Source: Geomonas agri
Lineage (GTDB): Bacteria > Desulfobacterota > Desulfuromonadia > Geobacterales > Geobacteraceae
Length of the DNA: 64,000 nt
NCBI RefSeq assembly: GCF_020179605.1
Contig: NZ_JAINZO010000001.1
Location: 1,958,799 to 2,022,798 of the forward strand
Direction of reading: 5' to 3'
Part shown: piece by piece, positions 28,120-56,128 of the stretch
Layout: every line of letters starts with the position of its first letter
Position numbering within the stretch: position 1 is the first letter of the stretch
The notes under the pieces: generated by a model
Databases searched by the model: none
What the model was told of the DNA's origin: nothing
What the model saw: only the letters and a program-made list of their open reading frames with translations
Translations under genes and position numbers: made by a program

Positions 28120-29775
28120 TTATTGTCCAAGCGCGTGCTGCAGGTCCTGCTCTGGAGTGGTGATGGGGCCAAGGTCATAATTCTGCACCAGGACGTCGAG
28201 CACCGCCGGCGTCACGTAAGCGGGGAGTGATGGACCCAGGCGGATTCCCTTGATGCCGAGATGCAGCAGCGTCAGCAGGATCACGTGGGCCTTCTGCTCG
28301 TACCAGGACAGGATCATGGAAAGCGGCAGCTCGTTGACCTCGCACTGGAACGCGTCGGCCAGGGCGACCGCGATGCGGATTGCGGAGTAGGCGTCGTTGC
28401 ACTGCCCCACGTCCAGTAGGCGCGGGATGCCGCCGATGTCGCCGAACTCTATCCGGTTGAAGCGGTTCTTGCCGCAGGCGAGGGTCAGGATGACGCAGTC
28501 CTTGGGGACCTTCTCGGCGAGGTCGGTGTAGTAGTTGCGCCCGGTCTTTGCCCCGTCGCAGCCGCCGATCAGGAAGAAGTGCTTCACCGCGCCGTTTTTC
28601 ACCGCGTCAACCACGGTGCCGGCCACCTTGAACACCGCTTCGTGGCCAAACCCCACCAGGATTTCCTGTCCAGGGTTCTCGGGAAGGTCCGGCAGCGCCA
28701 GCGCTTTGTCGATAACGGGGGTAAAGTCGTACCCCTCCAGGTGTGGGATACCCGGCCACGCCACCTCGCCCCAGGTGAAGAGCCGGTCGGTGTAGCTCGC
28801 CTCGGGCTTCTGGATGCAGTTGGTGTTGAAGATGATGGCGCCGGGGAAGTCGGGAAGCTCGCGGGCCTGGTTCTGCCAGGCGGTGCCGAAGTGGCCTACG
28901 AAGTGGGGATATTTCCTGAGGCCAGGGTAGCCGTTGGCGGGAAGCATTTCGCCGTGGGTGTAGACGTTGATCCCCTTCCCTTCACTTTGCTTTAGGATCT
29001 CCTCCAGCATGGGGAGATCGTGGCCCGAGACCACGATCCCCTTGCCGCCTCGGGTGCCGAGGTTCACCTTCATCGGCTCCGGAGCCTGCAGCAGCTCTGC
29101 GTGTCCGTCGTAAAGCAGTTCCATGGTGCGCAGGTTCCACTTGCCGCACTCAAGCGACAGCCCGACGAAATCCTCCAGGCTCGCCTGCGGGTCGGTGGTC
29201 TTCGCCAGGGAGCGGTGGATGAACTCGTAGATGCCGTCATCTTCCTTTTCCATCTCGGCGGCGTGCCAGGCGAAGGCACCCATCCCGAGCAGGCCGTAGA
29301 TCAGGATCTCGATGGTGGAGAGAATGTTTTCGTCCTGGTGCCAGGTGCGGATCCCGTGGTGACGCCCCTGGTCGATGAGCGCCCGGGTGTCCCCCGCCGG
29401 CTGCCAGTTGGCCGCCTCCTCGGTCAGTTGTGTCGCATCGCCCCCCTTTTGCTGGCGATCGGCGTCCTCGTAAAGCGCCTTGGCCTTCTCTTTCATCCGG
29501 TGGCAGTTCTGCAACCGGCGCGCTATGTCGTCGGGGTCGAAGTTGACGTTGGTGACCCGGGTGAAGAGGCCGTCCAGCATGAAGCGATCGACTTCCTCGT
29601 CCGTCTTGCCCAGCTCGCGCGCCTTGCTCGCGTACAGCGCCACCCCTTGCAGCCCGAAGATCATCAGGTCCAAAAGCGCCGAGACCTCGGGGTTCTTACC
29701 GCAGTTCCCCATTACGTCGCACCCTACCCCGCGCGCCGCCTGTTCACATTGCCGACAAAACATCGCACTAGCCAT
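28120..29775 (-). CDS. hcp: Hybrid cluster protein (hydroxylamine reductase)
   Basis: A 551-residue class I Hcp. Cys7, Cys10, Cys19 and Cys25 form C-x2-C-x8-C-x5-C, the N-terminal cubane ligands of anaerobe-type Hcp. The hybrid-cluster blocks follow, including IIFNTNCIQKP, FLIGGCDGAK and ILTLACGKNRFN. The family reduces hydroxylamine in vitro and is linked in vivo to nitric oxide and nitrosative stress. A perfect AAGGAGG ribosome site precedes the ATG, and an inverted repeat lies 18 bases upstream of the start codon. No hcr reductase gene is adjacent, so the gene appears monocistronic. Confidence 0.95.
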   Translation of the reverse strand: MASAMFCRQCEQAARGVGCDVMGNCGKNPEVSALLDLMIFGLQGVALYASKARELGKTDEEVDRFMLDGLFTRVTNVNFDPDDIARRLQNCHRMKEKAKALYEDADRQQKGGDATQLTEEAANWQPAGDTRALIDQGRHHGIRTWHQDENILSTIEILIYGLLGMGAFAWHAAEMEKEDDGIYEFIHRSLAKTTDPQASLEDFVGLSLECGKWNLRTMELLYDGHAELLQAPEPMKVNLGTRGGKGIVVSGHDLPMLEEILKQSEGKGINVYTHGEMLPANGYPGLRKYPHFVGHFGTAWQNQARELPDFPGAIIFNTNCIQKPEASYTDRLFTWGEVAWPGIPHLEGYDFTPVIDKALALPDLPENPGQEILVGFGHEAVFKVAGTVVDAVKNGAVKHFFLIGGCDGAKTGRNYYTDLAEKVPKDCVILTLACGKNRFNRIEFGDIGGIPRLLDVGQCNDAYSAIRIAVALADAFQCEVNELPLSMILSWYEQKAHVILLTLLHLGIKGIRLGPSLPAYVTPAVLDVLVQNYDLGPITTPEQDLQHALGQ

Positions 29776-30131: not shown

Positions 30132-30165
30132 AATAGTAGCGTAGTTGTTTAAAAGGAGATCAGCC

Positions 30166-30375
30166 ATGAGATCCAGCAGCAGAGATACATCAAACGGCAT
30201 ACTCCACGAAACTAAGGGCAAAGTTAAGGAAACTACCGGCAAGGTATTCGGGAATGTTTCATTGGAAACCGAAGGCAAGGCCGAGAAGATAGCCGGCAAG
30301 GTGCAGAAAAACGTCGGCAAAGCTGAGAAAAATATCGAGGAGGATCCCAGCTTGCACCGTCACGGCAAATACTAA
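30166..30375 (+). CDS. CsbD-like stress protein
   Basis: A 69-residue hydrophilic protein starting MRSSSRDTSNGIL; the ATG at 30166 follows an AAGGAG ribosome site, and an upstream frame extension lacks one. CsbD-type repeats are visible: HETKGKVKETTGKVFGN and ETEGKAEKIAGKVQKNVGKA. Members are induced by general stress in several bacteria; their biochemical role is unknown. A terminator follows directly. Confidence 0.8.
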   Translation: MRSSSRDTSNGILHETKGKVKETTGKVFGNVSLETEGKAEKIAGKVQKNVGKAEKNIEEDPSLHRHGKY

Positions 30376-30469: not shown

Positions 30470-30733
30470 TTACTCCGGCAGAGGAGTTCCGCAGTAGGGG
30501 CAGACATGGCAGGAGGGGTCGAGGTAACGACCACAGGGGGGGAAGGTGCACTGCTTGGGCGGCTTTCTCGCCGGGGGCACCGGCTGAAATTCCTCAGGAT
30601 CCTTGAGCGGCGTGCTCGGCAGCGGATCGCTCTGCGCGGCCTCCTTGAGAGGCAGGCATTCCAACGCTTCCTGCATCTGAATACGGCGCTTCTCCACGTT
30701 CTTTGCTTTCTTCAATTTGCCGTTTTTCGACAT
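30470..30733 (-). CDS. Small zinc-ribbon protein
   Basis: An 87-residue protein with a basic N-terminal helix (KLKKAKNVEKRRIQMQEAL), a Pro-rich middle and a C-terminal zinc ribbon with four cysteines in CTFPPCGRYLDPSCHVCPYC, that is C-x5-C-x7-C-x2-C. No family is recognised. A GGAAG ribosome site precedes the ATG. A T-tailed hairpin lies only about 20 bases upstream of the ATG, so transcription from upstream must pass a terminator. This makes a leader-controlled gene plausible (see 30752-31090). Confidence 0.65.
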   Translation of the reverse strand: MSKNGKLKKAKNVEKRRIQMQEALECLPLKEAAQSDPLPSTPLKDPEEFQPVPPARKPPKQCTFPPCGRYLDPSCHVCPYCGTPLPE

Positions 30734-30751: not shown

Positions 30752-30780
30752 AAAAAGGGGTTACCTGGCTGGGTAACCCC
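30752..30780 (-). terminator. Intrinsic terminator between the structured leader and the zinc-ribbon gene
   Basis: On the minus strand GGGGTTACC and GGTAACCCC pair around a loop and are followed by five T. Confidence 0.85.
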
Positions 30781-31090
30781 TGCTTCGTAATTAGTGGGGC
30801 AATGTAAACCTGCACTCTCGGGGGATAGTGCCTCGGCACCTCCGCTTTCCAGGAGCCGGTAGTCCGCCAGCTATAACATACATCCAGCCGCAACGCAACT
30901 TCTGGCTCCCCCCCCTGCCGCCAAAGACACCGGATACTGCTGTAGCATCCAGGGTTCCCATTGGAACAGCGCATGGCAGTGATCTCACAGGCAACAATTG
31001 CTTGTCTACTTCAACGAGGCAATGACTTCCCCACACCCCACGTACGGGAATAGAGAAGTCACTTACGAAAACTCCCACAGTGAAACAATT
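30752..31090 (-). ncRNA. Candidate structured RNA or riboswitch-like leader, about 340 nt
   Basis: The 445-base gap 30734-31178 contains no convincing gene but shows dense pairing. A long-range stem joins 31015-31032 with 30820-30835 (GGGG/CCCC, AGU/ACU and GCCUCG/CGAGGC). Inside are hairpins 30932-30950 (GGATGCT/AGTATCC) and 30954-30967 (GTTCC/GGAAC), and a branch closed by 30852-30857 with 30904-30909 (GGAGCC/GGCTCC). A promoter lies at 31097-31125 and a terminator ends the unit. I could not assign it to 6S RNA, RNase P RNA, SRP RNA, tmRNA or a riboswitch class that I know. Confidence 0.5.
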
Positions 31091-31096
31091 ATTAGC

Positions 31097-31125
31097 ATGA
31101 TATAAACCACGAGATACCAAATCAA
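31097..31125 (-). promoter_or_regulatory. Sigma-70 promoter of the candidate RNA
   Basis: On the minus strand TTGATT, a 17-base spacer and TATCAT place the transcript start near 31090, just before the paired region. Confidence 0.55.
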
Positions 31126-31178: not shown

Positions 31179-34100
31179 TTGCCCGTGCCGCTTTACCATA
31201 AGCAACAGCGCTCCCTTCTGCTGGCAGCCCTCATCCTCGCCGGTCTAGCCGGCAACTACTTCAATTTCAGCATCTTCCTCAACATCGACTTCCTCTTCGG
31301 CAGCATCTTCGCCATGCTGGCCCTGCAAACCCTTGGCCTGGGCCGCGGTGTGCTCGCAGCACTGGTCATCGGCAGCTATACCTATTTTCTGTGGAACCAC
31401 CCCTACGCCACCCTGATCGTGGTCGCCGAGACCGCACTGGTCGGGCTTCTGGTGCAGCGGCGGCGTATCGGCCTGGTCGCTGCCGACGCGTTGTACTGGG
31501 CCGTAATCGGCATGCCCCTGGTCTTTTTGTTCTACCACGTGGTGATGCAGGTTCCCTTGAGCAACACCTACATCGTCATGACCAAGCAGGCCGTGAACGG
31601 CATCGCCAACGCGATCGTCGCCCGCCTCATCTTCACCGGCTTCGCACTCAGGTTGAAGTCTGCACGTATCTCGTTCGGAGAGGTAATCGCAACCCTGCTG
31701 GCCTGTTTCGTCCTGGTTCCCTCCCTGCTGCTGCTGGCCATCGGCTGCCGCTCAGAATTCACAGAAACCGATCGGATGATCAGGCAGGACCTGCTGCAGG
31801 GCATCGGGGTGGAAGCAAGGCGGCTGGAGACCTGGGTGGAGAACCGCAAAATTCCGCTGGTGCACCTGGCGGAACTGGCGGCTGCGTCCTCCCCGCGGCA
31901 GGTGCAGCCCTTCGTGGAGCAGACAGTCAAAAACGATCACAACCTCAAGCGCGCCGGCCTTTTGGACCGCGATGCCACGATCACCGCATATTGGCCCCTG
32001 CTAGACGACATGGGCCAACCCTGCATCGGCAAGAACTTCGCCGACCGCCCCTACATCCCGGAAATGAAGCGGACGCTCAAGCCCATGCTCTCGGAAGTAG
32101 TGATGGCGCGCATCGGGACACCGCACCCGATCGTATCGGTGTGTGCTCCGGTGGTAACGGCGGGAAAGTACAACGGCTACGCCATCGGGATTTTGAGCCT
32201 GGAGCAGGTCAAGGAACAACTGGACAAGGTGTCGGCTCATAGCGAGATGCTGTACACGCTGCTGGACAAAAACGGCAAAGTCATCATGAGCAACAGGCCG
32301 GGGCAGAAGGTGATGACCCCCTTGCACAGGGGTGAGGGAAGCCTGCGTCGCCTCGATGCCACGATCACCCAGTGGGTCCCCGTCGCGGCCCGCAACGTCC
32401 CGATATCGGAGCGGTGGAAGAAGTCCTACTACGTTGCCGAGGCGACCTTGGGCGATTTCGCCGAGTGGAAGCTGATCCTGGAGCAGCCGGTGGCCCCGTT
32501 CCAAAAGCGGCTCAACGACAGCTACACCGGCAAGCTCACAGTGCTCTTCGTGATCCTGCTCATGTCGCTGGCGCTCGCCGACCTGTTGAGCCGCCGCTTG
32601 ATGGGGACCTTCCAAAACCTGCGCAGGATCACCAGCGATGTCCCCGCAACCCTGGCATCGGGTGGCAGCGTGACCTGGCCGGAGAGCGGCATCACGGAAA
32701 CCAGCGACCTGATCGCCAACTTCAAGGAGATGAGCGGCAGCATCGAGCAGTACCTGGCCGAACTGAAACACCTGAACGATTCCCTCGAGCAGCGGGTCGA
32801 GGAGCGCACCCGCCAGGTGGAGAGACTGTCGAGCGAGCAGCGCACCATCCTCAGCACCATGCCGCTTGGCGCCTGCCTGATCATGGACCGCAAGATTCAC
32901 CGGACCAACCCCGCCTTCGACAGGATCATGGGGTACCAACCGGGGGAAACGGTAGGGCAGGAGACTTCAATCCTCTACGCCGACCCGGGGTGGCACCAGA
33001 GGGTGGGAGAGGCGGGGTACCAGGCGCTCGAGCGGGGGGAAATCTACTGCACGGATGCCCTGATGAAGCGCAAGGATGGCTCGCTGATCTGGTGCAATCT
33101 CATGGGACAGATGGTCAATCCCGGCGCGCCAGAGGACGGCTCCATCTGGATCATCCAGGACATCACGGAACGAAAGGCGATGGAGTCGCAGCTGCGCAGC
33201 AGCGAGAGCCACTACCGCCTGCTTACCGAGGACGTGGCCGACGTGGTCTGGAAGCTGGACGGGGAGTTCCGTTTCACCTACATCAGCCCCGCCGACCATA
33301 AACTGCGCGGCTTCAAGGCAACCGAGGTCCTCGGGCACACCATCTTCGAACAGACCAGCGAGGCCTGGCATGACGCCATAACCGTGGCGATGGGATCGCA
33401 CGACGCGGACCAGCCACCCGCCACGTCGCTCGAGATCCAGCAGCTTTGCAAGGATGGCTCGCAGATCTGGACCGAGATATCGATCACCGCCGAGCGCGGC
33501 AGGGACGGGGCGGTGACGGGGTACCACGGCATCACCAGGGACATCACCCAAAGAAAGCAGGCGGCCCAACTAGAACAGCAACTGCTGCACGCCCAGAAGC
33601 TGGAAAGCCTCGGCGTGCTGGCCGGCGGCATCGCCCACGACTTCAACAACATCCTCATGGCCATCATGGGCAACGCGGACCTGGCCCTGTTGCGCACGCC
33701 GGAGGGATCAGCCGTGGCGGACAACCTGCACAGGATCCAGGACTCGGCTGCACGGGCCGCGGATCTGACCAAGCAGATGCTCGCCTACTCCGGCAAGGGG
33801 AGGTTTGTCGTGGAGACGGTGGACCTGAACCGGCTCATCGAGGACCTGATGCACCTGCTGGAAGTCTCTGTCTCCAAGAAGGTCACCCTCACTCTCGACC
33901 TGCACCGGCCGTTACCGCTCATGGACGCCGACCCGACGCAACTGCGCCAGATCGTCATGAACCTGGTAATCAACGCCTCGGAAGCGATAGGGGACGCCAC
34001 CGGCCATATCGTCATCGCCACCGGCAGCGCGGAGGTCGAGCGGCAAAAGCTGCAAGGTGGGCAGGAGGTGGCGTTGCCTGACGGTACCTACGTTTACCTG

Positions 34101-34733
34101 ATGGTCTCCGACAACGGTTGCGGGATGGAGCAGGAAACGCAGGCGAGGCTTTTCGATCCCTTTTTCACCACTAAATTCACCGGCCGGGGTTTGGGTATGG
34201 CAGCAGTCCAGGGGATCGTCAAGGGACACAAAGGGGCCATCAGCATCGACAGCAAACCGGGCGAGGGGTCCATCTTCAAGGTCTTCCTGCCGGCAGGAGC
34301 AGTCGCAGCGCCGGTGGCGAAGAGCAGCCCGCCCCAGGCGGTCCGGCATCAGGGCGGCGGCACGGTACTGCTGGTGGACGACGAGGAGAACGTGCGCAGC
34401 GTAGGGACTCTCATGCTCAGGCAGATGGGGTATACCGTGCTGCAGGCAAAGGATGGCTATGAAGCGCTGGACGTCTTCCGGAAGACACCGGGGATAACCT
34501 TTGTCCTCCTCGACCTGGTCATGCCCCGGATGGACGGCAGGGAATGCCTGCGCGAGTTGCGCCGGCTCGCCCCGGACATCGCGGTCATCATGTCCAGCGG
34601 CTACGACGAGCAGGAGCTGGCACGGGAGTTCGACGACATCAGACCCAACGGGTTTTTGCAGAAACCCTACGACCTGGCGGTCCTTAGGGAAACGCTGGCA
34701 AGATCGCTGCCGGTGGAGGCTGTCACAACCTGA
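31179..34733 (+). CDS. Membrane hybrid sensor histidine kinase with receiver domain
   Basis: An 1184-residue protein. An N-terminal bundle of several membrane segments (about 12-195) is followed by a periplasmic Cache-like domain (about 205-440), another membrane segment (about 450-465), a coiled coil, two PAS domains (about 555-670 and 675-795), the phosphoacceptor domain [20 protein letters not shown], the ATPase domain ([20 protein letters not shown]) and a C-terminal receiver with DDEE and [13 protein letters not shown]. Transfer from kinase to its own receiver is expected, and no output domain is present. The start is a TTG with AGGAG six bases upstream; a GTG two codons later is an alternative. 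It overlaps the convergent chemoreceptor gene by 11 bases. Confidence 0.92.
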
Positions 34734-54721: not shown

Positions 54722-55921
54722 CTATTTCACCGGGAACTGTGCCCTTTGTCCCTGGGGCGTATTCAATATCGTCACCAGCTCGTTGCGCAGTTGGTTGATC
54801 CTTTCCATGAGCGCCGCGGTGTTGGCATCGCTGTTGTTCTTGATGGAGGTGGCATTGTTGTTGTCGTTGCGTTGTATGTCGGCGTGCTGGGTATAAAGGG
54901 TTGCGAACCCGCTGTCGATGCTGCCGGCGGTGTGCTGCAGGCAGGAGAGCGTAGAGGTCTGCAGCGCCCCCTGTTCCGACTTGAGGATCTCATCCACCGT
55001 GGTGTAGGCGATCTCCAGCACGGAGGCTGCCGTCTCGAAGGCCAGACAGACGATAGCGCCGTTGCCGCCGAACCCCAGGGCGACCGCGGTCTGTTTGCAA
55101 CTGGCCCCCGCCATCCCCGCAAGTCCGCGCGCGGTGACCGATACCTGCCTCATTACCCCTGACGCGATGTCCAGGCCGGGGGTGCTGACCGGCGTATCGC
55201 ACCCAGCCGAAACGGTCTGAGCCGACATCGAGAAGAGTGCCTGCGGCGCGACGGCATTCAGTTCCTCGAGGTCCCCGTTTACCTTGTGCAGTTCCCCTTC
55301 CAGCGCACCGTAGGCCTGTTCCATCGGCTCGGCTTCCGCCTGCATATCCTGCCGCTCCGCGTCAGTCACACCGTCATCCGCGTTGCAGATCTGATCGCAC
55401 TCCAGGCCGTCCTGCCCTTTACCCTTGTTCTTCTTGAGCGGATTGCAGGCCTGCTTGTTCCCGTTGCTGTCAAGATCGATGGCAGCGCATTTCGCGCTCA
55501 GTGTGCCCTGGTCGTAGTCGCAGACGCCGTCGTTGTTCTGGTCATCCTGGGCCGAGAGCGGCACGCGGTAACAGGCGTTCTTGTTCGATTTTGCCCCGGT
55601 CTTGGCCAGTTTTTTGAACTCGCTGGCTCCGTTTTTGATCTTTGAGCGGCCAGTATTCATCTTCACCCCTTTAAGATGCTCGCGCTGCCCGGCCGTGAGC
55701 TTGTCGCCCAGCAGTGATCCCTCCTGGAAAAGACCAGTCATGAACTCGATCTGGTTGGCGACACCGTCGTGCTTGCACTTGAGCCTGTCGTAAATGTCCG
55801 TTTGATCACACGAAGCCGTGGCGGGTGGTGATGCCCATGCTGCGGTGTGGGAAGTGATGACCAGGACAGAGACAACGATGGCGCCAAACAACACAGGGGA
55901 GGCCAAACCGTTCAGTTTCAT
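54722..55921 (-). CDS. Secreted protein with calcium-loop-like motifs
   Basis: A 399-residue exported protein. The ATG at 55921 has an AAAGGAGAA ribosome site; the preceding in-frame stretch is leader RNA. The signal peptide is about residues 1-30. Acidic loops DDQNNDGVCDYD and DLDSNGNKQACNP, near residues 130-165, resemble thrombospondin type 3 or EF-hand calcium loops. Several cysteines are present. A coiled-coil stretch (about 195-230), a glycine/alanine-rich hydrophobic region (LGFGGNGAIVCLAFETAASV) and an Asn-rich C-terminal helix (NNNATSIKNNSDANTAAL) follow. I recognise no family. The attenuator-like leader suggests tight regulation of an envelope or extracellular function. Confidence 0.75.
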   Translation of the reverse strand: MKLNGLASPVLFGAIVVSVLVITSHTAAWASPPATASCDQTDIYDRLKCKHDGVANQIEFMTGLFQEGSLLGDKLTAGQREHLKGVKMNTGRSKIKNGASEFKKLAKTGAKSNKNACYRVPLSAQDDQNNDGVCDYDQGTLSAKCAAIDLDSNGNKQACNPLKKNKGKGQDGLECDQICNADDGVTDAERQDMQAEAEPMEQAYGALEGELHKVNGDLEELNAVAPQALFSMSAQTVSAGCDTPVSTPGLDIASGVMRQVSVTARGLAGMAGASCKQTAVALGFGGNGAIVCLAFETAASVLEIAYTTVDEILKSEQGALQTSTLSCLQHTAGSIDSGFATLYTQHADIQRNDNNNATSIKNNSDANTAALMERINQLRNELVTILNTPQGQRAQFPVK

Positions 55922-55989
55922 ACTTTTCTCCTTTTGGGCTGCGAGGTGTGGAGTGTCCGGTTCTGGAACAGACGGTATCGGTATGGGGC

Positions 55990-56122
55990 AGACAAAAAAA
56001 TGCCGGGCGCTGAACGCCCCCCGCAAAGGAGGCTCCGGCAGCCCGGCTGACTTGTTGGAAGTAAACCTCGAGGAAGTCCCGTGGTTTCCCGTGCCTCGGT
56101 CACCCGAGGTTCGGCTTTACCT
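55990..56122 (-). ncRNA. Candidate riboswitch with terminator, GEMM-like layout
   Basis: The transcript would begin right at this element. It holds a CCUCGG-GUGA-CCGAGG hairpin with a GNRA loop, then GGGAAACCACGGG, then AGCCGGGCUGCCGG, and ends in a branched hairpin closed by GCCGGGC/GCCCGGC followed by seven U. A competing pairing, AACCUCG with CGAGGUU, would disrupt the first hairpin. The order of parts recalls the c-di-GMP-I (GEMM) aptamer, but its most conserved blocks are not intact, so the ligand is uncertain. It controls the gene starting at 55921. Confidence 0.5.
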
Positions 56123-56128
56123 GATGCA

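Follow-up and report, generated by a model that had tools for sequence, protein, structure and literature searches.

The gene for a small zinc-ribbon protein in Geomonas agri is probably governed by a promoter-proximal attenuator that lacks an aptamer, and fed by transcripts that read through it, judging from the sequence of the locus and of its orthologues. The parts that the orthologues share under selection are best explained as a promoter and a terminator, the latter made of a hairpin and a T tract: the hairpin is conserved and covaries, promoter-like elements ahead of it are likewise conserved, and a conserved aptamer or antiterminator is lacking. The locus (Table 1) was analysed within a 64,000-nt stretch of DNA (referred to as the window in the rest of the text), for which the original prediction had described an RNA of about 340 nt with several stems, its own promoter and a terminator, read as an attenuation or riboswitch leader or, alternatively, as a free-standing small RNA.

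Table 1. Features of the zinc-ribbon locus in the window; promoters and leader are predictions.
Feature	Position	Strand	Description and basis
CsbD-like stress protein gene, convergent	30145..30375	+	ORF and Pfam
Zinc-ribbon gene, 87 aa	30470..30733	-	MSKNGK...CxFxxC...CPYCG; ATG at 30733
Intrinsic terminator	30752..30781	-	AGGGGTTACC-CAGCCA-GGTAACCCCT followed by TTTT(T); scan and conservation in 15/20 orthologues
Putative attenuated leader RNA, ~112 nt including the terminator (estimated)	30752..30863	-	Inferred from promoter and terminator
Putative proximal promoter of the zinc-ribbon gene	30870..30898	-	TTGCGT (30898-30893), 17-nt spacer, extended -10 TGT-TATAGC
Unconserved middle of the originally predicted RNA	30905..31062	.	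24/158 columns invariant, mean identity 0.41 (four genomes)
Conserved block with the originally predicted promoter	31063..31125	.	On the minus strand TTGATT, 17 nt, TATCAT
Hybrid sensor kinase gene (PAS, HisKA, HATPase, receiver), divergent	31179..34733	+	Pfam

The zinc-ribbon gene and its orthologues

The zinc-ribbon protein is encoded by 18 of the 19 genomes of the genus and by 21 of the 141 genomes of the order, our own genome being included in both counts. One of the 21 orthologues (G068) is a weak and partial match and was left out of later comparisons; upstream DNA was compared for 20 orthologues, own included. Thirteen named records contain the protein, 10 from Geomonas and one each from Citrifermentans, Geomesophilobacter and an uncultured Geobacter assembly. 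Pfam returned weak zinc-ribbon matches below the cut-off, NCBIfam a single weak match in one of 20 family members, and a search of solved structures one match with an E value of 0.92. We regard the protein as conserved and uncharacterised, and possibly dose-sensitive. Phage and plasmid collections searched with the leader gave no match, and the element is not described in the published literature among the matches listed. Near the convergent CsbD-like gene lies a gene coding for a hybrid cluster protein (Pfam Prismane; 28120-29775, minus strand).

A terminator hairpin is conserved upstream of the zinc-ribbon gene

An intrinsic terminator had been predicted about 20 bases 5′ of the zinc-ribbon ATG, and one is indeed present on the minus strand at 30781-30752, 18 nt before the ATG, with a stem of 10 bp including six G-C pairs and a T tract of TTTT(T). 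A scan of 1.5 kb found three terminator-like sites compared to 1.4 in shuffled sequences and would not by itself single out this one, which stands above the chance level because it is conserved in orthologues. Across four aligned relatives, 30 of its 31 columns are invariant (mean identity 0.98).

A hairpin of the form GGGGyTAyC...GrTAACCCC, or a variant of it, followed by a T tract was found upstream of 15 of the 20 orthologue starts, in Geomonas and one neighbouring genus. It accompanies all 14 proteins of the MSKNGK type (VSKNGK in G006) and one of the six of the MSKRGK type (G024), and was not found upstream of the orthologues in G023, G004, G016, G017 and G008 (5/20). The T tract comprises at least four T in 15/15 hairpin-bearing orthologues, most of which are close relatives. 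Among the 12 distinct hairpins, 97.5% of the cells are paired, compared to 40-67% in a control with the partner slid, and 4 of the 10 pairs changed on both sides, which was reached by 1 of 500 shuffles; further pair types were not above shuffles (341/500). Three hairpins carry a single mismatch (G010, G001 and G012). The terminator is thus kept by selection in the orthologues, with compensatory changes. Hairpin energies range from about −18 to −26 kcal/mol, stronger than the average of −16.5 given, by another method, for 5′ terminators (PMC2965389), and such strength would suit a simple stop no less than a switch.

As a background, we screened 464 kb of the same genome, made up of the window and 20 further stretches, in which 4 of 384 ORFs of at least 80 aa had a terminator at most 80 nt before a possible start. 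The same detector finds 8 of the 20 zinc-ribbon orthologues, and as these are related, the small binomial value of the comparison is no true probability. An earlier count on the window alone found no such terminator before any of 44 ORFs of at least 100 aa. A regulon sharing the hairpin was considered and rejected. A narrow pattern of the hairpin occurs once in our own genome. A wider pattern occurs at seven sites of the genus besides the zinc-ribbon gene, five of them within ~85 nt after the end of a same-strand ORF, the other two being L062 and L066.

A promoter-like element precedes the hairpin

The zinc-ribbon gene likely has its own proximal promoter (Table 1), which would lie within the RNA originally predicted and has TGTTATAGC as its extended -10 element (30878-30870, minus strand). 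Across four aligned genomes, 20 of its 29 columns are invariant (mean identity 0.81). A promoter-like element precedes the hairpin in all 15 hairpin-bearing orthologues: 11 genomes have TTGCNT, a 17-nt spacer (18 nt in G005), TGN and TATAGCT, and the other four have TTGACA, 17 nt and NTANNT. The -10 boxes were chosen by eye and the spacings were then measured; in G010, G001 and G012 an 18-nt spacer scores equally well, the 17-nt reading being our choice. With only 7 of 12 consensus bases, the proximal promoter of the window was missed by a consensus scan. Its pattern occurs once in the genome. An intrinsic terminator lies between this putative promoter, recognised by its sequence and conservation, and the start codon, on the same strand.

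We estimate the transcription start near 30863, 82 nt before the hairpin. In the 15 genomes, the estimated distances from start to hairpin are 82, 80, 73, 77, 77, 50, 53, 54, 29, 29, 29, 18, 3, 3 and 16 nt, the value of ~3 nt being that of G015 and G006, and the distance from the start of the hairpin to the ATG ranges from 45 to 104 nt. Since the leader varies from ~82 to ~3 nt, the orthologues are unlikely to have an aptamer, leader peptide or antiterminator in common. Once the terminator is removed, the leader of the window has a folding energy typical of shuffles (z −0.08), and its mean identity in four aligned relatives is 0.60. Thirteen of the 15 leaders were long enough for an antiterminator test, and in 12 of these 13 the pairing of the leader with the 5′ arm of the terminator was no better than in single-base shuffles (0.05 level); for the best pairing, the values were 0.49 in the window, 0.033 in G002 and 0.053 in G024.

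The long RNA lacks support as a unit

The predicted multi-stem RNA of ~340 nt did not hold up as a unit. Including the terminator, a 348-nt fold reaches a z of −2.24 (3 of 100 shuffles as good) or −2.14 (3 of 200), but without it the fold barely beats shuffles (z −1.55, 14 of 200 as good), and a z of −1.5 is attained by 3 of 40 stretches of 310 nt drawn at random from the window. The long-range stem proposed to close the RNA (31015-31032 with 30820-30835) amounts to 11 complementary bases in two blocks. All 11 pairs have a probability of 0.000, the minimum-energy fold lacks the stem and pairs 31032-31019 locally, and forcing the stem costs 15 kcal/mol; the sequence has seven perfect 6-bp helices whose arms are separated by more than 150 nt, compared to a shuffled mean of 4.3. 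Nor is the stem kept in three aligned relatives, in which 11 of 30 scorable cells pair after the window's own 11 are subtracted from 22/41.

RNAalifold on four sequences yielded double changes in 12 of 66 pairs, a covariation term of −0.94 and a structure from which the closing stem is absent. When the whole G000 fold was evaluated on four sequences, its paired cells and double changes were reached by 4 and 14 of 500 column shuffles, respectively, counts that we discount because the structure was derived from a single one of these sequences, terminator included; relatedness alone can produce such a signal, as the tool itself warns. Taken together, shuffles, RNAalifold and pair counts give the long RNA no structural support other than at the terminator.

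Among 58 genomes searched at the DNA level, ours being one of them, eight gave matches. The 3′ part of the query (215-391: proximal promoter, leader and terminator) was matched in G002, G007 and G013 besides our own genome, BLAST extended to the far end (2-68) in just G002 and G007 of these three, and G005, G011, G014 and G051 match from the hairpin onward only. The middle region is unconserved (Table 1) and, in G007, contains a copy of a dispersed repeat. This partly palindromic 29-nt repeat, GGGGACTGGCTCCGCAGGTGCCTGTCCCC, has 36 exact copies in G002, nine in G013, seven in G007 and two in G000, and in G002, G005 and G007 the repeat is present in the vicinity of the zinc-ribbon gene.

The sigma-70-like promoter predicted for the long RNA is a 9/12 match at 31125-31097, but one such site was found compared to 0.6 in shuffles, so that taken alone the match does not exceed chance. 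It falls in a block common to four genomes (Table 1), which BLAST aligned in G002 and G007 and to which G013 was added by alignment. Within these four genomes, mean identity is 0.83 for its -35 element, 0.92 for its -10 element, 0.54 between them and 0.79 for the following 34 nt. On the plus strand, the same block carries an extended -10 element, TGATATAAA, before the kinase gene (31179), and it could equally be a second minus-strand promoter or a promoter/operator of the divergent kinase. The original statement that the spacing is too tight for a separate promoter holds for the DNA downstream of the terminator, but within the proposed RNA there is a promoter-like element that is conserved in more genomes.

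The original prediction could match the RNA to no known class, and an Rfam covariance search gave no relevant match: there was none in the region at the gathering score, and at E values up to 10 only GHRLOS (on the opposite strand, 16.2 bits for a cut-off of 48) and sR1 (outside the region, 11.1 bits for a cut-off of 45) appeared. Elsewhere in the window, a c-di-GMP-I riboswitch scores over the Rfam cut-off at 56034-56125 (minus strand), and the ORF directly downstream of it (54722-56026, minus strand) has a putative secretion-signal-like start, judged by eye.

Genomic context and alternative readings of the hairpin

The longest frames upstream of the zinc-ribbon gene differ by group. They are divergent and kinase-like in G000, G007, G011 and G013, divergent in G010 and G001, and of a further divergent kind in G009, G015 and G006; G012 has a same-strand frame 448 nt away, and G014, G005 and G003 have an open frame on the strand of the zinc-ribbon gene that stops 113-162 nt short of its ATG. 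In G002, G005 and G014, the true upstream gene is probably other than the longest frame. Several of these changing neighbours look like signalling genes, the one in the window being a hybrid kinase by Pfam and those of relatives including frames that we take to be chemoreceptor-like, CheR-like and FIST-like. As the neighbours differ between groups and many are divergent, the hairpin appears to travel with the zinc-ribbon gene, and in G014, G005 and G003 it could also serve the same-strand upstream neighbour. In G051, which belongs to another family and gave no zinc-ribbon protein match in its genome, a similar hairpin with TTTTT (L008 1421-1531, minus strand) lies ~80 nt before an unrelated ORF, presumably shikimate dehydrogenase-like, and a same-strand gene ends ~240 nt upstream of that hairpin. 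The attenuator reading is slightly weakened by the same-strand neighbours and by the hairpin of G051.

The original proposal of a ~340-nt riboswitch or other aptamer-type leader is now highly improbable and already largely refuted. The terminator is correctly placed for it, the minimum free energy reaches a z of about −2.2 with the terminator, and the whole G000 fold beats most column shuffles on four sequences. Yet this score fades once the terminator is removed, the closing stem neither forms nor is kept in relatives, the middle is unconserved and holds a repeat copy in G007, and the estimated leaders of the 15 orthologues range from 3 to 82 nt; neither a structure nor a length is conserved upstream of the terminator, antiterminator pairing did not exceed shuffles in 12/13 leaders, and Rfam gave no relevant class. 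The leader reading survives as attenuation, carried by the terminator of 15/20 orthologues and its compensatory changes, and not as a riboswitch. We consider it unlikely that a free-standing small RNA, of ~110 nt from the proximal or ~330 nt from the distal promoter, ends at the terminator while the gene is fed by leakage. A promoter and a terminator around a non-coding body would suit a small-RNA gene, and the -35 and -10 elements of the distal promoter are better kept than the spacer between them. Against this, the body apart from the terminator is poorly conserved (0.60 for the leader, 0.41 for the middle, in four genomes), is reduced in G015 and G006 to an estimated 3 nt ahead of the hairpin, and belongs to an element that stays with the zinc-ribbon gene despite changing upstream neighbours. 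Such an RNA is thus unlikely as a shared function, although it is possible for the species of the window.

It seems rather unlikely that the hairpin, instead of terminating transcription, acts at the 5′ end of the mRNA on its stability or translation. Its position ~3 nt from the estimated start in G015 and G006, where termination may be poor, would be natural for a protective 5′ hairpin, but a stability hairpin would have no need of the T tract that is kept in 15/15 orthologues, and the distance from hairpin to ATG varies more than twofold. Very unlikely, too, is a hairpin that arose by chance or that terminates neighbouring genes and merely sits here. The seven other sites of the wider pattern, five of them shortly after a same-strand ORF, and the same-strand frames ending not far upstream in G014, G005 and G003 would agree with such an origin, whereas the occurrence in 15/20 orthologues with covariation, set against 4/384 background ORFs, and the divergent upstream gene in the window and several relatives argue against it.

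A model for attenuation of the zinc-ribbon gene

In the attenuator that we favour, transcription of the zinc-ribbon gene would start at its own promoter (30898-30870, minus strand), and RNA polymerase, after making a short leader, would run into a strong intrinsic terminator that lies 18 nt ahead of the start codon. A large share of transcripts would end there as an RNA of ~110 nt, and zinc-ribbon protein would be made from read-through alone. Since the RNA between promoter and hairpin is not common to the orthologues, control would most likely be exerted via the polymerase or the hairpin itself. A trans factor, possibly the zinc-ribbon protein, may act on either of them, or the terminator may simply impose a fixed damping of expression, which we consider as likely as a switch. 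Promoter activity, the start site, actual termination, the fraction of read-through and any regulation are predictions from the DNA. That the zinc-ribbon protein binds RNA or RNA polymerase and thereby controls read-through of its own terminator is distinctly unlikely; if true, it would constitute a self-controlling (anti)termination loop that needs nothing beyond the hairpin, because a leader of only a few nucleotides is enough in some relatives.

Comparison with known systems

A candidate new structured RNA is replaced here by a smaller, testable module of promoter, terminator and gene in Geomonas, without a visible aptamer. Leaders like GraL and rimP are not well understood, and the natural series of estimated leaders running from ~82 down to ~3 nt would be useful for asking what a promoter-adjacent terminator does.

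The rimP-leader (RF01770) is described as a terminator hairpin with a G-rich and a C-rich side and a T stretch, without a larger conserved element (PMC2965389). Both it and the element studied here are conserved terminator hairpins with a T stretch before a gene and no larger element, but the rimP-leader precedes rimP-nusA-infB, whereas here an 87-aa zinc-ribbon ORF follows. We rejected identity with RF01770, which scored over the cut-off in 0/19 genomes of the genus among the matches listed, with weak matches in 19/19; the model has little power as a test, since a match over the cut-off was obtained in just 1 of 14 control genomes, and gave no match at the window locus up to E 10. Anti-TRAP is described as acting on TRAP, with a T-box controlling the anti-TRAP gene; the likeness is that of a small zinc-binding protein involved in attenuation control (PMC11255114).

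The greA leader GraL of E. coli offers a parallel in architecture alone. By its description, its 5′ UTR contains an intrinsic terminator after a leader of 19 nt before the hairpin, about two thirds of the transcripts stop there, greA is fed by the roughly one third that read through, and GraL is hard to class as an attenuator or a riboswitch (PMC6829880). The two systems have in common a promoter, a very short leader, a terminator in the 5′ UTR and a gene that is, or here would be, fed by read-through; they differ in the gene concerned, and GreA-dependent autoregulation and a trans target are features of GraL in that description (PMC6829880).
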